Assembly: GCA_013285905.1 (NCBI GenBank)
Contig: JABDGU010000004.1
Span: 1 to 64,000, forward strand
DNA: 64,000 bases
Direction of reading: 5' to 3'
Source of the DNA: Bacteroidota bacterium
GTDB lineage: Bacteria > Bacteroidota > Bacteroidia > Chitinophagales > Chitinophagaceae
How positions within the stretch are numbered: position 1 is the stretch's first letter; every line of letters starts with the position of its first letter. The notes under the pieces were generated by a model that saw only the letters and a list, made by a program, of their open reading frames with translations, had not been told where the DNA came from and searched no databases. A program made the translations under genes and the position numbers. Positions 47,979 to 64,000 of this stretch are shown here, in pieces.

Positions 47979-49456
47979 TTATTGCCCGATAATAATTTTC
48001 TTATTTACACATTCTCCATTCTCAGAAAGGACCTTAAGGTCATGTAGACCAGCTGGAAGGTTTTTTACATCTATCGTTTCTAATTCTTTAGTAGTAGTAA
48101 AGGAACGAATCCCTTGACCGAGAATATTGCTAAGCGTGATGTAGTATTTTTGATTATTGTAGTTAGGTATTTTAATTGATAGCATGTCATAAGCGGGGTT
48201 GGGGAATACTTCTAAATTGTTAGTTAGACTTTGAAGATTTGAAATGCCGAGTGGGGGCTCATAGCAAGTTCCGCAGCTATTATCATTATAATAATTACAC
48301 GTTATAGCGTTTACTCCAAAGCTTGGGTTCCCATCCTGATAGCCGTTGTCAACACTACCTATTTCCAGTTTATAATAGTTCCACGTAAATATTGGTGATG
48401 ATGGGGACAAATCGTTATTTAATAAAACATTGTATTCCGGAGCATGTAAGCAATAAGAGGAATCGTAGGGATAATAGTAATAAACATTCTGAATAAAATT
48501 CTCTTCTGGCATTAAAGTGTCAAAACATACAAGATTCAAAAAATGGACAGGCCCACCTGTAATGGTTTTAGCATACTGTGTTCCAAATGGTGGCAGAGGA
48601 TCTGCTTCCCATCCATTTGTAATATAGGTTACACCTGTAGAATCTATAATTTTTTGAACAATTGAATCAAGGTTATATACCATTGGGAAAGAACTGGAGT
48701 AATAGCCAGTACAACCAAGGCAATGTTGAGATTCAAATACATCACCGACACTCCAGTTGTTCATTTGTGCAAACGTCGGGTTTATAAAATCAATGATATT
48801 GAAAGTAATTGCACTGATCTGGAGTATATAAGAACTATAGCTTTTTAAGCTTAAGTCCAAATAAAAGTCCATTCCCTGGTAATATACTGTATCAGGCTTA
48901 TGATAAGGAAAACAATACAAATCAATTATTTGCACAAAGCCATGATTTTTGCTCAGGATTATCTGTGCATTATTTGCGGGATCAGAAGTGACGGGGCCTG
49001 TATTATTAAACGCATTTATAGTAATGGTCTTTACAGAGTCTAATACTTCCAGAATGGTCATGGTATCCACCGAACTAAGTGATGCCCGGAAATAGAGACT
49101 GCTGGTATCGTTATAAAATATCCATGAGTCCCCAGGTTGCGCCTGGGTCTTTATTATTATAGTATCTCCAAACATGTTATCAAAAAGAAAAGTACCGTTC
49201 TGCAATTCTATTATCCGTTTGCCGAGCCAACTTCCTCCATTGCTATCAATAACAACAGGAGCCGTCATTCCTTGCGGGTCATAAGTTTCTCTTAGTGTAT
49301 GGTATGGATAGTACGTTGTTGTGTTGCCTGATATTATTGTAGAGTCAATTCTCATTTAATAAAGTATTGTTTAGAAGCGGCAAAGCAATTATAATTCTGC
49401 GAATAAGAGATGGCAGAGGAGATAATAAGTGAAAACGTTAAAAGGAAGGTCTTCAC
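47979..49456 (-). pseudogene. T9SS cargo protein with signal peptide out of frame
   Basis: The main frame (ATG 49355 to 47979, 458 residues) ends in a T9SS type A sorting domain: EVFPNPAYDMLSIKIP, ITLSNILGQ and the final KKIIIGQ. It has no signal peptide, which a T9SS substrate requires. Immediately upstream, GTG at 49456 opens another frame reading VKTFLLTFSLIISSAISYSQ, a perfect signal peptide, then NYNCFAASKQYFIK and a stop overlapping the ATG region (TGA 49354-49352). One added base near 49357 would fuse them. So the gene is frameshifted by one base at its 5' end, or there is a sequence error. The central part (beta-rich, Tyr-rich) has no recognised domain. Confidence 0.75.
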
Positions 49457-50159: not shown

Positions 50160-50185
50160 TATTTGCATCTTTGATAGTATCTTTG

Positions 50186-50213
50186 CGGGGAAATTTGAAT
50201 TTCCCCGTTTTTT
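50186..50213 (+). terminator. Intrinsic terminator after the fasciclin gene
   Basis: CGGGGAAATT-TG-AATTTCCCCG followed by six T. It is only 10 bases before the sdaA start; TATCTTTG at 50178-50185 just ahead of it could be a -7 element, but no matching -33 is present. Confidence 0.9.
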
Positions 50214-50222
50214 ATTTAGAAT

Positions 50223-51653
50223 ATGGCCCCGAAGAAGGAAAGTATATCAGTATTAGATATTTTTAAGATCGGCATTGGCCCCAGCAGTTCGCATACTTTA
50301 GGCCCATGGCGTGCAGCATTGCGTTTTTTGGATACAGTAAAGCATTACGGCATTAATGAGGTCAATTCGATAAGGGTATTATTGTATGGTTCTCTTGCCA
50401 AAACTGGGGTTGGACATGGCACAGATGTGGCAGTGATATTAGGCATTTGCGGTGAAGACCCCGTGACATTTGACGTGAACGAAGTAACTCCACGTATAGA
50501 GCAGATAAAAGAGCAAAGAAAATTAATGCTCAATGGTGAAAAAGAAATAGCTTTTGACCCTGCGCTTGATATAGTGTTTCTGTATGACGAAAGCCTGTCT
50601 TATCATCCTAATGCACTTACCTTTTTATGTTCATTTAAAGATGGCAGGGAGATAGCCGAAACCTTTTATTCGATAGGTGGCGGTTTTGTAGTGAAGGAGG
50701 GCGAAGAGAATGGTGGCAGTGATGCAAAAGAATTACAGTTCCCGATAGACAAGGGCGATGATCTTTTGCACTGGTGCCTGAAAACAGGATTAAGTATCTC
50801 GGAAGTGGTGATGGAGAATGAGCATAGCTGGAGGGATGAAGCCGAAACCAAAAGAATAGTGCTGAATATCTGGCAGGCCATGCGCGATTGTATGTATCGC
50901 GGTGCGCATATTGGCGGCGAACTTCCCGGCGGACTGAAAGTAACAAGGCGTGCACAGGCCCTGAATAAAAAATTGCTGAAAGGCAGAACTTATATTAGTT
51001 ATGAAGAGTGGGTGAATGCCATTCGCGCAGGCGGAGGTTCTTTTCAGTATATTATAGACTGGGTAAGTTGTTTTGCCTTGGCTGTAAATGAAGAGAACGC
51101 CTCGTTTGGCAGGGTAGTAACTGCACCTACCAATGGCGCTGCGGGAGTGGTGCCTGCTGTGCTGCAATATTTTATTACCTTCTGCGATGGCAATGATGAG
51201 AACAAGATCATGAAGTTTCTTTTAACGGCTTCTGAAATAGGAAGCATTTTTAAGAAAGGCGCTACGCTTTCGGCAGCGATGGGCGGTTGCCAGGCAGAGA
51301 TAGGTGTTTCATCATCTATGGCCGCCGCAGCACTTACAGAAAGTATGGGTGGCAGTATCCGTCAGTGTATCATGGCGGCTGAGATCGCTATGGAACATCA
51401 CCTTGGGCTCACCTGCGATCCGGTTGGCGGGCTTGTTCAGGTGCCTTGTATTGAACGGAATACCATGGGGGCCATAAAGGCTATCACAGCTTCTCAGTTG
51501 GCATTACAAAGCAATCCTGATAATGCGCTGGTATCCCTGGACGATGTGGTGAACACGATGTGGAAGACAGCTTTGGATATGAACCACAAGTATAAAGAGA
51601 CCTCCGAGGGTGGGCTGGCAGTGCAGTTGCCGATCAGTTTGAGTGAGTGCTGA
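50223..51653 (+). CDS. sdaA: L-serine ammonia-lyase, single-chain iron-sulfur type
   Basis: 476 residues, containing both the beta domain ([20 protein letters not shown] at the start) and the alpha domain. Conserved cysteine segments for a [4Fe-4S] cluster are [38 protein letters not shown]. It converts L-serine to pyruvate and ammonia in the cytoplasm. The order of domains is that of E. coli SdaA. The DUF3857 cluster starts 81 bases downstream on the same strand. Confidence 0.95.
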
Positions 51654-51734
51654 TTTGTAATTTCCGAAAAGGGTATTATTTTGCGTTTCAATTGCAAAAG
51701 AAATAATTTATATCCTTTTGCAGCCCAGTTTTTT

Positions 51735-53744
51735 ATGCATTATCCTCGCCCTGTTTTTCAAAGACAAGTAGTCTTATTTGTTTTATTTATTTCACTTTCT
51801 TTCCCATCTTTTGCGAATAAATTTTTTGAAGATAAGGACGCGTTTTTTATTAAATATTTAAAGCAGGAGAACTTTGATTTTGATGTGAATTCGGCAGCAA
51901 TTGTTATTTATGAGAAAAGCTCGACTGAATTAAACAATAATAACGGAGTATTTTATATACGCCAGCAAATACGCAGAATAATAAAAATTCTAAACAAAAA
52001 TGGTTTGTCATACGCCGATGTCTCGATTACTGAAAATGGAGGATCGGAAATAAGTAGAGTTAAAGGCGTTACATACAATCTGGTTCAAAATAGCCTGGAC
52101 AGGCAGATTTTAGAAAAGAGCTCTATATATACCACTAAATCCGATTATCTCGTCTCTGCAAAATTTGGCCTGCCATCTGTTAGAGAAGGTTCGATAATCG
52201 ACTATAGTTACACGGTTGAACGCCCATTATCTTTGTTGATATTAGACTGGGAGTTCCAGGCGAAGATTCCCAAACTCTTTAGCGACGTTGAAGTTTTTAC
52301 ACCTTACGACCTGAACTTACGGCCTGTTATTCTCGGCACTCTTGCATTTCATGAGATAGGCAATGCCAAGAAAGAAATTGACGAAATATCTTTGCCAGAT
52401 GCATGTGAATTTGTTGAACAGGGAACAGGAATAGATTTTTCGAAAAGAAGGTGGATCAGAAAGAACATTCCTGTAATAAAGGATGAGCCGTTTACCACGA
52501 TTGAAAATTATTCAGAGAAATTAAAACTCCTTATTACCGGTGTTCAGGAACCGAGATACGCGGTATCCATTATGGATACATGGGAGAAATTAAATCATTA
52601 TTTATTAAATAGCTTTCATTTTTATAAGCCGATAGAGCAGGTACACAGTTCTGTTTTCGAGAAGGCAAACTTGCTGATAAAAGGTATTAGCGACCCGGTT
52701 GAAAAAGCAAGAATTCTTTATCATTTTGTTCAAAAAGAGTTTAGCTGCAAAGGTGATTCACGCATCTGGATCTGGCAGGATATGGATAAGATATTTGAGA
52801 ACAGGTCCGGATCGGCGTCGGAATTGAACCTGCTCTTTATAACAATGCTCGGATATGCAAAGCTTAGTTGCAGCCCGGTAATTATTGCTACAAGCGACGA
52901 GACTAAGGCAGATGGAGCATTCCCTTACCTGGAACAATTTGATCGCACAATTTGTGAATTGACAATTGGAAGCAAGAAATACCTGCTTGATGCCTCGGTA
53001 GATCATTGCCCGTTTGGAATTTTGCCTAACGAATGTTACAATGGTTATGCATGGGTGATAGGCAAGAACGGAGGACACAGTCTTTATTTGAATAGCCAGG
53101 AAGCGAAAGATAAAATCATATACCTGCTAAACGTGTCGTGGGTGGGTGACACCGTTATGGAAATACAAGGTTCTGAAAAGATAGGGATGGTAAGCGGCAT
53201 TAATTTACGCGATGAGTTGGCTAAGGACGAGAAAAATGTGAGGACATATATACTTGATAATTTTGAAAACCTTGCTGCGGATGTGAAGATCGATGATGTT
53301 AAAATTGACCAATTAGATGAGCCTGATACGAGCCTGATGTTAAATTATTCGCTTACACTGAATTTGAAGCAGCCCGCAAATATTTTTTATCTAAACCCTA
53401 ATTTTATTAAGTTTTTCGCTGAGAATCCTTTCAAGTCAATGAAGCGATATTTGCCGATCGAGTTTCCGGGGAATGAAGAGAGAATGTACATAATGCGTAT
53501 GCAAATGCCCATTGGATATGCGCCAGAACTATCGGGAAACCCGGTATTGATAAAATACAGGGAAAACGAGATGAGTTTTAAATACACAGCCCAGTATGAC
53601 TCTACTTTACGCGTATTGTCTGTTAATAAAAATTTCACATTAAGCAAGACGCAGTATAGCAGCAGCGACTATAAGGACATTCAGACTTTTTTTGATAAAA
53701 TGATGCAGGAGGAAAACAATATTATTACATTTAAAAAGGAGTAA
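51735..53744 (+). CDS. DUF3857 protein with inactive transglutaminase-like core (copy 1)
   Basis: 669 residues from ATG at 51735, chosen because it opens a signal peptide (QRQVVLFVLFISLSFPSFA); the frame also extends to TTG 51681. An N-terminal DUF3857 beta-sandwich (about 60-250, with VREGSIIDYSYTVERP) precedes a transglutaminase-like core and a beta-rich C-terminus. The position of the catalytic Cys (GDC in active members) is Ala361 in RSGSASELNLL, and the His is Arg404 in FDRTICEL, so catalysis is not expected. It ends FDKMMQEENNIITFKKE, like copy 2. The most divergent of the three inactive copies. Function unknown; exported to the periplasm or outer surface. Confidence 0.85.
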   Translation: MHYPRPVFQRQVVLFVLFISLSFPSFANKFFEDKDAFFIKYLKQENFDFDVNSAAIVIYEKSSTELNNNNGVFYIRQQIRRIIKILNKNGLSYADVSITENGGSEISRVKGVTYNLVQNSLDRQILEKSSIYTTKSDYLVSAKFGLPSVREGSIIDYSYTVERPLSLLILDWEFQAKIPKLFSDVEVFTPYDLNLRPVILGTLAFHEIGNAKKEIDEISLPDACEFVEQGTGIDFSKRRWIRKNIPVIKDEPFTTIENYSEKLKLLITGVQEPRYAVSIMDTWEKLNHYLLNSFHFYKPIEQVHSSVFEKANLLIKGISDPVEKARILYHFVQKEFSCKGDSRIWIWQDMDKIFENRSGSASELNLLFITMLGYAKLSCSPVIIATSDETKADGAFPYLEQFDRTICELTIGSKKYLLDASVDHCPFGILPNECYNGYAWVIGKNGGHSLYLNSQEAKDKIIYLLNVSWVGDTVMEIQGSEKIGMVSGINLRDELAKDEKNVRTYILDNFENLAADVKIDDVKIDQLDEPDTSLMLNYSLTLNLKQPANIFYLNPNFIKFFAENPFKSMKRYLPIEFPGNEERMYIMRMQMPIGYAPELSGNPVLIKYRENEMSFKYTAQYDSTLRVLSVNKNFTLSKTQYSSSDYKDIQTFFDKMMQEENNIITFKKE

Positions 53745-53790
53745 AAAAATAATGCTTATTTATAGGCTTTGACAATTAATATTTAATAGT

Positions 53791-55827
53791 GTGAACGTAA
53801 AACAGTTTATTTACTTCGGAGTGTTTTTTTTATTGTTTGCGATATTTAGTGATGTTGCAGAAGCACAAAATCTAAGTGACGCCTTCCTGAAAGAGCATCT
53901 TGAGAAGACGAAATATTCGATTGATACCGGGGCATCCGCTGTAGTGCTTTATGAAAAGACATCTATAAAGATCACAACAGAAGATATACTTAGTTCTAAC
54001 CCGGTGTATCGGCAAACGACCAAGATCTACAGGCTAATAAAAATATTAGGACACTCAGCTTTGAGCGCCGCGGACGTATCGACCGGGTATGTTTTTTCAC
54101 GTACGGGAGATATTGCTAACATAACCGCGACAACTTATAACCTGGAGAACGGGGCGATACGAAAAACTCCCTTACCCGCAACATCTGTTTATAAAAAAGA
54201 CAATAAGAACTATTACGAGATGGTCTTTTCTTTGTCAGACGTTAGGGAAGGCTCTATCATTGAATATTCTTATGATGTAGACGTGCTGCTGACCACCTAT
54301 CCGCGGCCGTGGATCATCCAGTCGCAGTTTCCGAAATTATGGAGTGAGTACGAGATTGAGTCGCCCGACAAGTTTGAATATCTCGATATTCAACAACTCA
54401 ATAAAGATGACGTTCCCTTCAAAGATTATAGTTCTGTGGACAGCGTTAAGGCCGATAGCATAAGAGCTTACCACGTATTTACAAAGAAAGGATCTAAAAG
54501 GTATAGTGTTTTGTGGGGTAAAAGAAATATACCCTCGGTAGTTTCAGAGCCTTTTATAACAGATATTGTAAACCATGCAGAGCGACTTGATCTGCAAATG
54601 TCGGAGATTAATAATAAAGGCTTTCTTTACAATTATCACAGGGAGATACTTTCGACTTGGGAAAAGTTGAATGAAGATCTTTTAAATAATGTAAAATTCG
54701 GCAAGCAAATAGACAGATCTAATGTTTTTTTAAATAAAATAACCGATTCTTTTAGCGCTACAGATTCTGCATTAGCCAGGACAAAAAATATTTTCGCGTA
54801 TGTTCGAAATCATTTCAATTGCATTTCAAGCGGGGGTAGCATTTTTATAAGGGATAATCTTCATCAAGTCTTTGATCTCAGGAAGGGCAGTTCTGCCGAG
54901 ATCAATTTGCTGCTTGTGGCAATGCTGGTGCATGCCGGTATTCATGCCGCACCTGTTTTACTGAGTACAGTTGGTAATTTGCCGGTAAATGAAGCATACC
55001 CTCTGCTTAACAGGTTTAACTACCTGGTGTGTGTGGTAGAAATAGAAAACAAAAAATACTTTTTAGATGCATCTAACAAATACAATTCTTTTGGCCAACT
55101 GCCGGTATACTGCTATAATGGTTATGCCCGCATTATTGATGCACAAGGACAAGGGGTCGATCTTAATCGTGACATGATGGTAGAGGTAAATTCTATTTCT
55201 GCATCAGTTTCGGACATATCTGAAGCTGGTTATAAAGTAAATATCGAAGAAAAACTCGGAAAGATCAATACATGGCTGGTCCGTAATTCCTGGGAAACTG
55301 ATTCATCCCGGATAAAAAGCTATGTTGATAAGTCGACCGGTTTATTATCGGGGAGCAATACTGTATCTGATTTTACCATTTTGAATTCAAGTGATCCCGA
55401 TTCGGATATTGTAATACGGTACACAATTAATTCAGAGAACAAAAACAAAAAAAATGCATTGTACATGAATACTGACCTCAACAGGATGTACACAGAAAAC
55501 CCTTTCACATCTGCCTATAGAAAGCTGCCCATTGAATTTGTTTATAATCATCAGTATAGTTATAACATGCAGGCAGTACTACCAGAGGGGTTCACCGTTG
55601 ACGAATTGCCAAAAACATATTTAAAAGAATATGGCGACAATAGTATAGTGTTTAAACATATTGTGGATTATGACAAAACCACACGTTCATTAAAAGTAAA
55701 TACCAGTTTTATTACAACGAAAACAGATTACGATGCTAAAGAATATAATAGTATGAGGGATTTCTTTGAAAAAATGATACGGGAAGAAAATAATATCATT
55801 ACATTTAAAAAAGAGCCTCAGAAATAG
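53791..55827 (+). CDS. DUF3857 protein with inactive transglutaminase-like core (copy 2)
   Basis: 678 residues, start GTG at 53791, signal peptide FIYFGVFFLLFAIFSDVAEA. DUF3857 shows VREGSIIEYSYDVD. The transglutaminase Cys position is Ser368 (RKGSSAEINLL) and the His position is Tyr (RFNYLVCVVEI), while the later YFLDAS Asp is kept. It is very similar to copy 3 in layout and motifs (DAFLKEHLEK, STGYVFSR, WIIQSQFPKLWSEYEI, LWGKRNIPSV). It begins 46 bases after copy 1 and ends 9 bases before copy 3, so a common transcript is likely. Confidence 0.87.
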   Translation: MNVKQFIYFGVFFLLFAIFSDVAEAQNLSDAFLKEHLEKTKYSIDTGASAVVLYEKTSIKITTEDILSSNPVYRQTTKIYRLIKILGHSALSAADVSTGYVFSRTGDIANITATTYNLENGAIRKTPLPATSVYKKDNKNYYEMVFSLSDVREGSIIEYSYDVDVLLTTYPRPWIIQSQFPKLWSEYEIESPDKFEYLDIQQLNKDDVPFKDYSSVDSVKADSIRAYHVFTKKGSKRYSVLWGKRNIPSVVSEPFITDIVNHAERLDLQMSEINNKGFLYNYHREILSTWEKLNEDLLNNVKFGKQIDRSNVFLNKITDSFSATDSALARTKNIFAYVRNHFNCISSGGSIFIRDNLHQVFDLRKGSSAEINLLLVAMLVHAGIHAAPVLLSTVGNLPVNEAYPLLNRFNYLVCVVEIENKKYFLDASNKYNSFGQLPVYCYNGYARIIDAQGQGVDLNRDMMVEVNSISASVSDISEAGYKVNIEEKLGKINTWLVRNSWETDSSRIKSYVDKSTGLLSGSNTVSDFTILNSSDPDSDIVIRYTINSENKNKKNALYMNTDLNRMYTENPFTSAYRKLPIEFVYNHQYSYNMQAVLPEGFTVDELPKTYLKEYGDNSIVFKHIVDYDKTTRSLKVNTSFITTKTDYDAKEYNSMRDFFEKMIREENNIITFKKEPQK

Positions 55828-55836
55828 ATCATTACA

Positions 55837-57849
55837 GTGAATATAAATAAATATTTATTCTTTTCGTTAGTATTTGAGCTGTTGGCTAATACGGTGAAAG
55901 CTCAAAATTTGGGTGATGCTTTTCTGAGGCAGCATCTTGAAAAAAAAGTGTACTCACTTGATGTGGATGCAGATGCGGTTATCCTCAATGAGAAAACAAA
56001 GACCAAGATAGAGGACAACATGATAGTGGGATTTGAGCAAATCACACATGTGTATGAATGTATAAAAGTCCTTAAGCCCACGGCAATTCAAATGCACATC
56101 GCCGATATATCAACCGGCTACGTATATTCCAGGAATTGTGGCGTAAATAATATTATAGCTACTACTTATAATATTGAAGAAGGCGTAATAAAGAAGGCCT
56201 CCTTAGCAAGCAACGCAGTATTTAAAAAAACAAATGGCGATTATTGTGAAACGGTCTTTACAATGCCGGATGTGAGGGTTGGCTCTATTATTGAATATTC
56301 TTATGAAATTAAAACGCCGGTAATGTATTATCCCAGGTCATGGATCATACAAGGTCCCTACCCTAAATTGCAGAGTGAATATGAAATTGTTTCACCCCGT
56401 AATTTTAATTATACGAATATAAGCCAGATAAGTCTTGGAAATGAGCCCTTCCAAGACTACAATTCCAAAAAGGAAACTGAGAACGACAGTGTAACTTCCT
56501 ACCATGTATTAGTGAAGATGACAGATGGATGGTCGTCTGTGCTATGGGGAAAAAGAAATATTCCTTCGGTAAACGAAGAACCTTTTATATGTAATATAAT
56601 CAACCACAGGGATCGTTTGGACCTTCAGATTGCAGGTATGAACTTTGGGGCTTTCTCATATAACCAAGTCATACTCAGCACTTGGGAAAAACTGAATGAT
56701 GCAGTATGGAATAATTCAAACTTCGGCGCCAAAATTAAGGAGCCAAACAAATTCCTAAATAAATTAGTTGACTCTCTCACTACCGGTGATACATCGGCTT
56801 TAGGAAAAACGAGGAGTATATATAACTATGTGCGAAAGAACATAAGTTGTAATAATAATTTAGGAGCATTTTCTACAGAAGATATTCGAAAGATTCTTGA
56901 AAATAAAAGAGGAAATGTGGCTGATATTAATTTGCTGTTGTCTGCTATGTTGGACAAGGCCGGAATTAACGTTTCGCCGGTTATTTTAAGCACATTGGGC
57001 AACCTTAGAATAAACCCTTCTTATCCATTACTAAACAGGTTCAACTACGCGGTATGCATGGTGACAATCGATAGTGCCAGATATTTTTTTGATGCATCTG
57101 ATAAATTTAATCCTTTTGGCATTTTGCCAATTTACTGTTACAATGGTTATGCACGTATCATAGATAAGCATGGGGATGAGCTTTTTATGAGTCCAGATGA
57201 CCTGAAAGAAAGAAATGTATGTGTGGTAAATGTAAACGGTATCGGGGATAGTCTATATAAGATAAACGTGGCTGAAAAGCACGGAATGTATAGTTCAATG
57301 TCCTTACGAAAACAGTGGAATGGCGATTCGGCGGCTTTACACAATTATGTAAAAAAACAAACCGAAACTTTTACAGGAAATGTAAGCGTAACTGACATGA
57401 GTGCAATCAACCTGGAAAATGCCGATACTAACCTTATCATAAAATATACCCTTACTATTGCAACTGGCCGGGCTGACATTATTTACTTGAATTCGGACCT
57501 TAGTAAGTTTTATAACGAAAACCCATTTAAGGCAACAAATAGAAAACTACCTATCGAGTTTCCCTCCAAGATTGAAGATGTTTACGTGATGACCGCCAGG
57601 TTGCCCGAAAACATGGAAGCGGAAGACATTCCAAAGCCATCTATAGTGAAATATGATGACGATAACATCATATTTAAACATTTGGTAAATTACGACAGCA
57701 GTAGCCGCGTTATCAGCGTAAACACAAATTTCTCTGTTTCAAAGACAAATTTTGATGTGAAAGAATATAGCACTATCAGGGATTTCTTTGAAACTATGAT
57801 AACAAATGAAAACTCTATGCTTGTTTTAAAGAAAATAAAAGACAAATAG
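55837..57849 (+). CDS. DUF3857 protein with inactive transglutaminase-like core (copy 3)
   Basis: 670 residues, start GTG at 55837, signal peptide KYLFFSLVFELLANTVKA. Same order of domains as copy 2, with VRVGSIIEYSYEIK in DUF3857. The catalytic Cys position is Val361 (RGNVADINLLL) and the His position is Tyr (RFNYAVCMVTI). Copies 2 and 3 are evidently a recent duplication. It lies two bases before the fourth gene. The family occurs in many Bacteroidetes as exported proteins; no substrate or partner is known. Confidence 0.87.
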   Translation: MNINKYLFFSLVFELLANTVKAQNLGDAFLRQHLEKKVYSLDVDADAVILNEKTKTKIEDNMIVGFEQITHVYECIKVLKPTAIQMHIADISTGYVYSRNCGVNNIIATTYNIEEGVIKKASLASNAVFKKTNGDYCETVFTMPDVRVGSIIEYSYEIKTPVMYYPRSWIIQGPYPKLQSEYEIVSPRNFNYTNISQISLGNEPFQDYNSKKETENDSVTSYHVLVKMTDGWSSVLWGKRNIPSVNEEPFICNIINHRDRLDLQIAGMNFGAFSYNQVILSTWEKLNDAVWNNSNFGAKIKEPNKFLNKLVDSLTTGDTSALGKTRSIYNYVRKNISCNNNLGAFSTEDIRKILENKRGNVADINLLLSAMLDKAGINVSPVILSTLGNLRINPSYPLLNRFNYAVCMVTIDSARYFFDASDKFNPFGILPIYCYNGYARIIDKHGDELFMSPDDLKERNVCVVNVNGIGDSLYKINVAEKHGMYSSMSLRKQWNGDSAALHNYVKKQTETFTGNVSVTDMSAINLENADTNLIIKYTLTIATGRADIIYLNSDLSKFYNENPFKATNRKLPIEFPSKIEDVYVMTARLPENMEAEDIPKPSIVKYDDDNIIFKHLVNYDSSSRVISVNTNFSVSKTNFDVKEYSTIRDFFETMITNENSMLVLKKIKDK

Positions 57850-57851
57850 AC

Positions 57852-59774
57852 ATGCCCAAATATATTTTCATCGTTTTAGCTATCTTATTTTTTCAGGGAA
57901 GCGTTTATGCAAAAGGAGATGAAAGCCTTGACTGCAGCCGTATACCAGCAGCTCTTTTGAAACATGCTGATGCAGTTGTTAGAAGAAGCAGCTATGATGT
58001 AAAGATTGTGTCGCTTGATGAAGTCTATGAAACCGAAACTTATGCTATCACAATATTGAACAAAGAAGGCTACCAATATGCCAGGTTTTATCAATACTAT
58101 GATAAGTTCCGGAAAATAAACAGCGTTGGGGGCACATTGTATGACAAAGATGGAAAAGAACTGAAAAGATTAAGGAAAATAGATGTTGGGGACGCGGCTT
58201 TAGTTAGCTCTTCGAATCTTTTTGACGACCATAGAATTAAGTATTGCGACTTTAATTATTCCGCTTATCCGTTTACGATAGAATATGAAGTTGAGGTGAA
58301 AACGAATTATTCGTTTTTTCTTCCGTCCTGGGATCCCCAAAAAGGGCATAATTGCGCTGTTGAGAAATCTGATTTCAGTATCGAATATCCTGCAAGCATG
58401 CCCTTAAGGTATAAAGCATTTCACCTTAATGCAGAACATACTGAAAAGAAAGATGGCAGCACTGCTACAATGGCATTTTCTGTTGGAAATATAGTCGCAG
58501 GAAAACAAGATAAATTGGCTCCTTCAGAGAATTTCCCTTTCCCGACCTTAATATTTGCTACGGATACTTTTGAATTTGGAGGTTTAAGCGGTAAAATGGA
58601 TACATGGAAGTCTTTTGGGAAATTTTTTTATGATCTGAATGATAAAAGGCAAGACTTGTCCCCTGAAGCCAGGTTAGCGGTACATAAGTTGGTGGATACC
58701 TGTACTTCCAGCTTCAGTAAGATCTCTTTATTGTATAAATACATGCAATCCGGAACGCGGTATGTGAGTATTCAATTGGGAATAGGTGGTTGGCAATGTT
58801 TCCCGGCAGATTATGTTGCTGAAAAAGGTTATGGTGATTGCAAGGCATTGAGTAATTATATGAAGGCCCTATTGAAAGAAGCGGGTATTTCTTCCGATAT
58901 GGTACTGGTATATGGCGGAAGGGATAACGGCTTTAAATTGCAAAACGATTTCCCCTTCAACTCATTTAATCATGCTATTCTTTGTGTCCCGTTAGAAAAA
59001 GACACAGTGTGGCTGGAATGCACGTCCAAAGATCTTCCTGCAGGGTATTTGTCTGAGTTTACACACAATAGAGATGTTTTATTGCTTACTCCAGAAGGAG
59101 GGCAAGTTGTTAAAACCCCCACGTATAATTACGATAACAATCATACAACAAGAATTGTTCATGCGCATATTGATAATAAAGACCAGGTAGATGCAAAGGT
59201 TACTAAAGAATTAATGGGCCTGCCATGTGATATGCAACGACATGAATTAATTGACCAGCCTAAAGACAAGGTTGAAAACTATTTGAACAGGCAATTTTCG
59301 CTCAATACATATAAAGTGAATGACTACAAGATCAGCACTTCGCTTAGTGGGAGGATTCCTGTTTTATCTGAGCAGATATCTTTATCCGGAAGTGGTAAGA
59401 TCACCCATGCTGGTAAGCGTATGTTTATTGACCCTGATATTTTTCCGGCCGGGGTGGATGCGCTGGAAGAAAACGAAAAAAGGGAGAAACCTTTTTACGT
59501 CAGAGAGTCTTTTGAGACAGACGATACTGAAATAATTGAATTGGAAGGAGCCTATACTGCAGAGTTTATACCGGGAGAAATCAGCATGAGCTATCCGTTT
59601 GGGGCATATAATTGCAAGATATTTTTTGAGAATGAAAATACAATAAAGCTTGTACGCACTTATCACCAGGTAGAAGGCACTTATGAGGCGACATTATTTA
59701 CGGATTATACGAAGTTTATTAAAGCAGCGGGAAATGGTACGGAGCAAAAACAGCTGGTACTCTTGAAAAAATAG
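57852..59774 (+). CDS. DUF3857 protein with active-looking transglutaminase core
   Basis: 640 residues, signal peptide KYIFIVLAILFFQGSVYA. The N-terminal DUF3857 domain has YPFTIEYEVEVKT. The core has the expected Cys330 (GYGDCKALSNYMKALL) and His374 (SFNHAILCV); the third position is Glu389 in VWLECTS, usual for this subgroup. The lead-in YVSIQLGIGGWQCFPADYV is also typical. It is much more distant from copies 1-3 than they are from one another. As the last of four genes with 46, 9 and 2-base gaps it probably shares their transcript. It may be a cysteine protease or amidase acting on an exported substrate; that is inference. Confidence 0.88.
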   Translation: MPKYIFIVLAILFFQGSVYAKGDESLDCSRIPAALLKHADAVVRRSSYDVKIVSLDEVYETETYAITILNKEGYQYARFYQYYDKFRKINSVGGTLYDKDGKELKRLRKIDVGDAALVSSSNLFDDHRIKYCDFNYSAYPFTIEYEVEVKTNYSFFLPSWDPQKGHNCAVEKSDFSIEYPASMPLRYKAFHLNAEHTEKKDGSTATMAFSVGNIVAGKQDKLAPSENFPFPTLIFATDTFEFGGLSGKMDTWKSFGKFFYDLNDKRQDLSPEARLAVHKLVDTCTSSFSKISLLYKYMQSGTRYVSIQLGIGGWQCFPADYVAEKGYGDCKALSNYMKALLKEAGISSDMVLVYGGRDNGFKLQNDFPFNSFNHAILCVPLEKDTVWLECTSKDLPAGYLSEFTHNRDVLLLTPEGGQVVKTPTYNYDNNHTTRIVHAHIDNKDQVDAKVTKELMGLPCDMQRHELIDQPKDKVENYLNRQFSLNTYKVNDYKISTSLSGRIPVLSEQISLSGSGKITHAGKRMFIDPDIFPAGVDALEENEKREKPFYVRESFETDDTEIIELEGAYTAEFIPGEISMSYPFGAYNCKIFFENENTIKLVRTYHQVEGTYEATLFTDYTKFIKAAGNGTEQKQLVLLKK

Positions 59775-59804: not shown

Positions 59805-60629
59805 ATGATAAAGAATTTAGAAGGACTTTTCCCGGCTATTAAGGAGGGTAATAATTTCTTCCTCATGGCAGGTCCATGTGTGGTGGAAAATGAAGAGGTA
59901 GTTATGTTTACTGCGGAAAAACTGATTAAAATGTGTGAGCACCTGAAGATCCCTTATATTTTTAAGGCGTCATACAGGAAGGCCAATCGCACAAGGCTCG
60001 ACAGCTTTACAGGCATAGGAGATGAAAATGCATTAAAGCTTTTGAAAAAAGTGCGGGATACATTTAATATTCCCGTTGTTACAGATATACACTCCGCAAA
60101 CGAAGCTGCTATGGCTGCAGAATATGTGGATGTGCTGCAGATACCCGCTTTTCTATGCCGCCAAACGGATATACTGATAGCTGCTGCAGAGACGGGGAAA
60201 GTAGTGAATGTGAAGAAAGGACAATTCCTGTCGCCTGAGGCTATGCAGTTTGCGGTAGATAAATTAAGGCAAAGCGGTAATGAGAAGATTATTCTTACAG
60301 ACAGGGGGACCATGTTTGGTTATCACGACCTTGTGGTAGACTATAGGGCCATCCCTATAATGAAAACGATGGATGTGCCTGTGGTGTTGGATTGCACTCA
60401 TTCTTTACAGCAACCTAACCAGACAAGTGGTGTAACCGGTGGCAATCCCGCAATGATAGAGACGATCGCGAGGGCAGGCATTGCTGTTGGTGCTGATGGT
60501 CTATTTATTGAAACCCATCCTGATCCATCCAAAGCCAAGAGCGACGGGGCCAATATGCTGCGCCTGGATCTGCTGGAGGGGCTTATGGAGAAGCTGGTGC
60601 GCCTGAGGGAGGTTGTTAATAAGTTTTGA
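59805..60629 (+). CDS. kdsA: 3-deoxy-D-manno-octulosonate 8-phosphate synthase
   Basis: 274 residues, full length. Motifs are FLMAGPCVVENEE near residue 18, FKASYRKANRTRLDSFTG, VVTDIHS, DRGTMFGYHDLVVDYR, LDCTHSLQQPN and FIETHPDPSKAKSDGANML. The enzyme condenses phosphoenolpyruvate and arabinose 5-phosphate for the Kdo of lipopolysaccharide. The Cys in AGPC, with the later His, Glu and Asp, places it in the metal-dependent class. A terminator follows. Confidence 0.96.
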   Translation: MIKNLEGLFPAIKEGNNFFLMAGPCVVENEEVVMFTAEKLIKMCEHLKIPYIFKASYRKANRTRLDSFTGIGDENALKLLKKVRDTFNIPVVTDIHSANEAAMAAEYVDVLQIPAFLCRQTDILIAAAETGKVVNVKKGQFLSPEAMQFAVDKLRQSGNEKIILTDRGTMFGYHDLVVDYRAIPIMKTMDVPVVLDCTHSLQQPNQTSGVTGGNPAMIETIARAGIAVGADGLFIETHPDPSKAKSDGANMLRLDLLEGLMEKLVRLREVVNKF

Positions 60630-60650: not shown

Positions 60651-60681
60651 AAAAGGGGGATTATTTTTTAATCCCTTTTTT
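60651..60681 (+). terminator. Intrinsic terminator after kdsA
   Basis: GGGATT and AATCCC (60657-60662 and 60670-60675) extended by an A-run on the left and six T on the right. Confidence 0.8.
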
Positions 60682-63401: not shown

Positions 63402-64000
63402 CTATTGGTTGTTCTTCACAAACCTTTCCACTTTCAGCAGATTATTGTCTTCGTCAAAAACCTGTATCATATAGAAGCCGCTGGCAAGATCGGAGATGTT
63501 AAGATCTTTTGCATCTTGTTTTTGCAGGATCATTTTACCCTGTATGCTGTAAACCGATACGTTTACTTTTACCGCTGCCTGGATATATATTACCGAGCTG
63601 GCCGGGTTAGGATATATCGTAACATCGTTATTGTATTCGTTTACGTTGCTGATACCCAAAACGGTAATAGAATTGGATGTATTAGAGCAACCTGCAGGGT
63701 CAGTAACAGTTACAGAATAATTAGCCGCTACGTGATTGGTATTGTAGGTATAGCTGGTGGCACCGGGAATAGGTGTTGTACCATTTTTGTACCATTGATA
63801 AGTTGTATAACCACTGCCGGTACTTGCAATGCCCGCACCATTAATTACCACTGTTGGAGTTATGGGTGTATCTACTGTAAGGTTGATAATTGATGAGGTG
63901 CCTATACAGCCATTAGCGTTGGTAACCATAACTTCATAGTGGCCGGAATTATGAGCGACATATGAAGATGCAGTTGCCCCTGAAATGAGAGTACTGTCAA
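63402..64000 (-). CDS. T9SS cargo protein, C-terminal part (5' end outside window)
   Basis: The frame is open from 63402 to the window edge (about 199 residues). It contains at least one and a half Ig/PKD-like repeats, with pattern G-Y-T-T-YQWYKNG...ATSYTYN...YSVTVTDPAGCSNTS, common in secreted Bacteroidetes adhesins and enzymes. The end is a T9SS type A sorting domain: VTIYPNPASSVIYI, VSVYSIQGKMIL, LASGFYMIQVFDE and the final RFVKNNQ. The catalytic or binding part is outside the window, so function is unknown. Confidence 0.9.
   Translation of the reverse strand, partial: DSTLISGATASSYVAHNSGHYEVMVTNANGCIGTSSIINLTVDTPITPTVVINGAGIASTGSGYTTYQWYKNGTTPIPGATSYTYNTNHVAANYSVTVTDPAGCSNTSNSITVLGISNVNEYNNDVTIYPNPASSVIYIQAAVKVNVSVYSIQGKMILQKQDAKDLNISDLASGFYMIQVFDEDNNLLKVERFVKNNQ

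Follow-up and report, generated by a model that had tools for sequence, protein, structure and literature searches.

The family to which the proteins described here belong has one solved structure, 3KD4, of the "putative protease" BDI_1141 from Parabacteroides distasonis, with a DUF3857-Transglut_core-DUF3858 architecture. This protein itself appears to be Cys-less, judging from a low-score alignment in which its Cys site corresponds to YGTPLEI, with a proline at the position of the catalytic cysteine. Our literature searches found no function or paper for BDI_1141 and no functional work on DUF3857, a term met only as a neighbour of lolA. Hardly any literature exists on the family, and none that we found deals with function, in keeping with an earlier sequence-only reading of the DNA analysed here, which had stated that no function is established for it.

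The core fold is also found in LapG, a periplasmic cysteine protease of Legionella and Pseudomonas. LapG is a single small domain with LapD as its regulator, and we know of no dead paralogue of it. Erythrocyte protein 4.2 is an inactive transglutaminase, whose dead fold has been retained as a binding protein. RloB, encoded in the rlo operon of Pseudomonas, consists of an inactive transglutaminase fused to seven transmembrane helices (PMC12239564). It would share with the dead proteins described below an operon-encoded, periplasm-facing inactive transglutaminase domain in a Gram-negative bacterium, but RloB is a membrane protein, and its partners are an aspartic protease and an ATP-grasp protein instead of an active paralogue (PMC12239564). 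In trypanosomes, a catalytically dead paralogue, the prozyme, activates AdoMet decarboxylase (AdoMetDC), and this activation is biochemically proven (PMC5201418). It serves as the model for the mechanism proposed below for the four proteins considered here (P1–P4), although the prozyme system is eukaryotic and of unrelated fold.

The four-gene locus and its surroundings

The window, i.e., the whole 64,000-nucleotide stretch of DNA analysed here, comes from a Bacteroidota genome whose nearest named relatives belong to the Flavipsychrobacter/Taibaiella kind of Chitinophagaceae. It contains four tandem open reading frames on the + strand, P1 (51735–53744, ATG start), P2 (53791–55827, GTG start), P3 (55837–57849, GTG start), and P4 (57852–59774, ATG start), separated by gaps of 46, 9, and 2 bases, as described in the sequence-only reading; an in-frame TTG at 51681 offers a longer alternative start for P1. 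Besides this locus, no further DUF3857 matches were found in the host genome of 2.5 Mb, which is 61% complete. By sequence reading, each of the four N-termini is signal peptide-like and without a lipobox Cys, and P1–P4 are predicted to be exported, soluble, periplasmic proteins. The host probably possesses type IX secretion because the C-termini of two other products of the window (47979–49355 and 63402–63929, both on the − strand) resemble, by eye, type IX sorting domains (NPA...N..G). A tail of this kind is absent from P1–P4.

The gaps separating the four genes contain no terminator-like site, and their promoter-like matches are no more than the whole region yields. The ends of P1 and P3 are each overlapped by one sigma-70-type match, and the Bacteroidota-type TAnnTTTG sequence is absent from the gaps on the + strand and occurs at chance level across the window. 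Together with the short gaps, the lack of a clear intergenic promoter-like or terminator-like site points to the single P1–P4 transcript proposed earlier. This transcript may also span the L-serine dehydratase gene (50223–51653, + strand), 81 bases upstream of P1, and the DAHP-synthase-family (KdsA-like) gene (59805–60629, + strand), 30 bases past P4, because strong intrinsic-terminator-like hairpins with T-runs lie on the + strand at 50185–50208, upstream of the serine dehydratase gene, and at 60651–60681. They are possible left and right boundaries of the transcription unit.

The serine dehydratase gene is conserved as a neighbour in close relatives only and is unlikely to belong to the module functionally; the DAHP-synthase-family gene is a lineage-specific neighbour, too. 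While these two genes flank the locus near the window, a QueG-like gene and ClpB are the neighbours in many Chitinophagaceae, and Ssb and a GldE-like gene in another family (all named by eye). Because the flanking genes vary between lineages, only the dead–active pair itself is conserved, and the lineage-dependent neighbours proved uninformative as a clue to function.

Catalytic residues and predicted structures

We assessed DUF3857 (PF12969) membership with the Pfam profile at its gathering cut-off of 24.6 bits. P2 (27.9 bits), P3 (30.8 bits), and P4 (79.8 bits) score above this value, whereas P1 (18.2 bits) falls below it, and its membership is therefore assigned by the tree and by its homology to P2 and P3 (30–33% identity). 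P2 and P3 are about 46% identical to each other, and P3 is the only one of the four with a Transglut_core match above the cut-off. To read the catalytic columns, we aligned the proteins with some 100 homologues. At the Cys, His, and acid positions, P1 has Ala, Arg, and Asp (A-R-D), P2 Ser, Tyr, and Asp (S-Y-D), P3 Val361, Tyr404, and Asp419 (V-Y-D), and P4 Cys330, His374, and Glu389 (C-H-E); a Cys-His-acid triad in register is found only in P4. The alignment thus bears out the earlier claims that P1–P3 have lost the catalytic Cys and His and that P4 has kept both, and it adds the third residue, absent from that reading, which is Glu in P4 instead of the canonical Asp still present in P1–P3. 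By its residues, P4 is a putative active transglutaminase-like enzyme. In the phylum-wide alignment, the active copies comprise 146 with C-H-E and 14 with C-H-D, the latter nearly all distant singletons, and Glu as the third residue is common to the whole C-H-E group. The dead pattern of P1–P3 is not due to chance, as it is conserved in well over 100 loci.

A triad restored by other residues, which the sequence-only reading had named as an argument against itself, was not found in the alignment: the dead copies as a whole have no conserved Cys or His column, and the GIGGWQ motif preceding the Cys, common to the active copies, is lost in the Cys-less group. We considered C434 as a relocated catalytic Cys, but it is kept in 120 of 131 dead copies from Chitinophagaceae and in only 7 of 56 elsewhere and is therefore not a general replacement nucleophile. 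One member of the Cys-less clade (L069:6249-8189) has a Cys at the nucleophile position together with Lys at the His position (C-K-D). Otherwise, many different residues occupy the former Cys position of the dead copies, which is free to vary. The site is remodelled, with Asn at Cys+4 (185/192), an acidic residue at Cys+2 (173/192), and Asp (187/192), and the invariant residues of the Cys-less copies include N365 (183/187), D419 (184/187), and N562-P563-F564.

AlphaFold models of P3 and P4, computed with family alignments, are confident (pLDDT 90.5 and pTM 0.85 for each) and predict the same three-domain fold for both proteins. In the models, V361 of P3 and C330 of P4 are at equivalent positions opening a helix, Y404 and H374 open a strand, and D419 and E389 come after the next strand. 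The top structural match for both is 3KD4 (Z 25.9, rmsd 3.7 over 490 residues for P4; Z 19.7, rmsd 3.8 over 485 residues for P3), which shares the three-domain fold with only 15% identity. Next come the transglutaminase cores of LapG (Z 11.2, rmsd 2.9 over 130 for P4; Z 10.7, rmsd 3.3 over 134 for P3), PNGase, TG2/TG3, and protein 4.2 (7uzs; Z 9.2, rmsd 4.2 over 153 for P4; Z 9.9, rmsd 4.5 over 151 for P3), and both P3 and P4 have a transglutaminase-like fold by these matches. Protein 4.2 differs in being an animal protein that is comparable in the core domain alone and has no operonic active partner. Matches to the N-terminal domain of M1 aminopeptidases and to ribophorin mainly reflect similarity to the DUF3857 β-sandwich and were dismissed as clues to activity.

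Conservation and descent of the dead–active pair

A genome scan with the active copy as the query, ranked by similarity to P4, provided 80 named loci, a set biased by this design to near relatives (almost all Chitinophagaceae). In all 80, the copy immediately upstream of the C-H-E gene, on the same strand, is Cys-less and either complete or a fragment, the fragments being mostly at a contig edge. The gap between the dead and the active gene is mostly −4 to +10 bases, and the commonest dead triad is V-Y-D. Counts from two overlapping whole-genome samples are less biased. Strong matches were hand-counted from the best E-values per genome (< ~1e-100 for the active profile and < ~1e-60 for the Cys-less profile), and residues were checked in about 60 sequence stretches of the phylum sample. 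Of the 149 genomes in the family sample, 100 have both copies, none the active copy only, two the Cys-less copy only (G001 and G088), and 47 neither; the corresponding numbers among the 148 genomes of the phylum sample are 39, 0, 5, and 104 (Fisher p of 8e-37 and 1e-30, respectively, uncorrected for relatedness). Every C-H-E carrier also has a Cys-less copy (100/100 and 39/39). The linkage, whose absence from related genomes would have counted against the sequence-only reading, holds in the 80 loci and in both samples.

The usual arrangement is one dead and one active gene, and the three dead copies in the window are a local expansion. An even larger array has four Cys-less copies upstream of a single active copy (L149:2-9902), and elsewhere active and dead genes alternate twice as a duplicated cassette (L071:4027-11761). 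In other families, the Cys-less copy is sometimes located downstream of the active one (L197, L198, L200, L207, and L208) and may retain the His (G-H-D, S-H-D). Since the dead copy lies upstream or downstream across the phylum, what is conserved is the pairing rather than the order of the two genes. Exceptions include genome G090, with two solitary Cys-less copies apart from its active one (L034 and L055), Cys-less copies at some distance from the pair (L242 and L243), and members of the active clade that have C-H-D (L190 by its place in the tree, L233 by motif). The solitary copies in G090 and the seven Cys-less-only genomes across both samples indicate that the dead protein can also play a separate role. 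Copies from Cys-less-only genomes with Gln at the Cys position (L227, L228, and L229; Q-G-D, Q-W-D, and Q-S-D) represent a separate subtype.

Canonical DUF3857-transglutaminase singletons with C-H-D are homologous to P4 and share its domains and the Cys-His pair. They differ in having Asp as the third residue, in mostly lacking a Cys-less neighbour (L213-L219, L221-L223), and in falling outside the C-H-E clade. At two loci (L212:7123-10931 and L220:5177-8943), a further Cys-less homologue (D-I-S and D-Y-S, from a weak alignment), outside the main Cys-less clade, sits right beside a distant C-H-D copy, possibly a second, independent origin of dead–active pairing. Open reading frames of 1255 and 1286 amino acids (L218 and L221), taken up as dead–active fusions that could indicate contact, are actually TPR-DUF3857-transglutaminase proteins, in which TPR repeats are fused to a C-H-D module within about 1270 residues (L218:4845-8612 and L221:4965-8825).

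Two unrooted trees, with SH-aLRT support in place of a full bootstrap search, describe the descent of the copies. In the first (homogeneous model, 167 rows), 95 Cys-less copies form one side of a branch with a support of 100, and the C-H-E copies cluster with one C-H-D copy among them. The second (site-mixture model, 49 rows) has a group of 24 Cys-less rows with a support of 100 and a separate one of 19 C-H-E rows with 99. The Cys-less copies share their ancestry within one clade, and the C-H-E copies constitute another. P2 and P3 are tandem duplicates that arose locally, and P1 is an older paralogue. Between close relatives, pairwise dN/dS, estimated by Nei-Gojobori with several pairs at dS > 1, is 0.04–0.11 for the dead gene and 0.07–0.12 for the active gene. 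The dead genes are under strong purifying selection, as strong as that on the active genes, which, together with their single clade and its own invariant residues, agrees with the earlier suggestion that the dead copies are under selection. Across 74 loci, the protein distances of dead and active copies correlate with r = 0.90, to which their common species history contributes. With a dead paralogue under selection and a conserved linkage to the active one, the locus presents genetically as an enzyme–pseudoenzyme paralogue pair.

A possible two-part enzyme

The reading we favour, to which we give roughly even chances, is that P1–P4 make up a two-part enzyme of the periplasm: P4 would carry out the catalysis, and P3, together with P1 and P2, would serve as the non-catalytic activator or substrate presenter. 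P4 would have a papain/transglutaminase fold and attack an amide bond with the Cys330-His374-Glu389 triad, as a protease, an amidase, or an acyl transferase. P3 would be its non-catalytic paralogous partner, as would the duplicated copies P2 and P1, all of them translated just ahead of P4. They would most likely bind P4 via the shared β-sandwich/transglutaminase architecture and might activate it or present its substrate, as the prozyme does with the trypanosome AdoMet decarboxylase. A two-part enzyme, whether the dead part is activator, presenter, or inhibitor, is supported because no active copy in the sampled genomes lacks a dead one, whereas a dead one can occur alone; apparently, the active copy needs its Cys-less partner and the Cys-less copy can persist by itself. 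We infer that the dead partner is an activator rather than an inhibitor, although inhibition fits this asymmetry nearly as well.

It is possible, though doubtful, that the dead copies instead restrain P4 as an inhibitor or safeguard, by binding it during export, releasing it on a signal, and thereby shielding the cell from a harmful periplasmic hydrolase. Besides the asymmetry, the translation of the dead gene ahead of the active one in all 80 named loci would suit such a role, but the downstream position of the dead gene in five loci of other families fits an antidote more poorly, the Cys-less-only genomes require another role for the dead protein, and the dead copies are full-length three-domain proteins, not small inhibitors. 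We regard it as quite unlikely that the Cys-less proteins have a ligand-binding or catalytic site of their own, formed by the acidic residue at Cys+2, the Asn at Cys+4, the Tyr at the His site, and Asp419, and are linked to P4 through a common pathway alone. The conservation of the remodelled residues, far above that of the former Cys position, and the occurrence of Cys-less-only genomes and solitary copies agree with such a site, yet a nucleophile conserved across all dead copies and the GIGGWQ loop are missing, and this explanation alone does not account for the absence of solitary active copies. That the linkage merely reflects ancient tandem duplication and operon inheritance, with the copies acting independently, is very unlikely: tandem duplication is frequent in the family, as the local duplicates P2 and P3 illustrate, but the linkage survives across families and classes, with differing neighbours and in both gene orders, and the active copy is never alone in the 100 and 39 carrier genomes of the two overlapping samples.

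Within the two-part enzyme with an activating or presenting dead partner, a more specific proposal, which we consider unlikely as a whole, is that the remodelled site of the dead subunit (acidic-x-Asn, Tyr, Asp) detects a substrate or other ligand and gates its partner, that the catalytic subunit works only with the dead one throughout the phylum, and that the shift from C-H-D to C-H-E accompanied this dependence.

The dead–active pairing, seen phylum-wide in Bacteroidota and almost always adjacent, suggests a so far uncharacterised two-part enzyme and turns the label "domain of unknown function" into a testable hypothesis. That no activity has ever been reported may be because the only solved relative is apparently Cys-less. 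The DUF3857 transglutaminases of Bacteroidota should be expressed or knocked out together with their Cys-less neighbour, since the active protein may give no signal when assayed by itself. As the active copy never occurs without the dead one in any carrier of either sample, the pair offers a clean bacterial system for the origin and the indispensability of pseudoenzymes.
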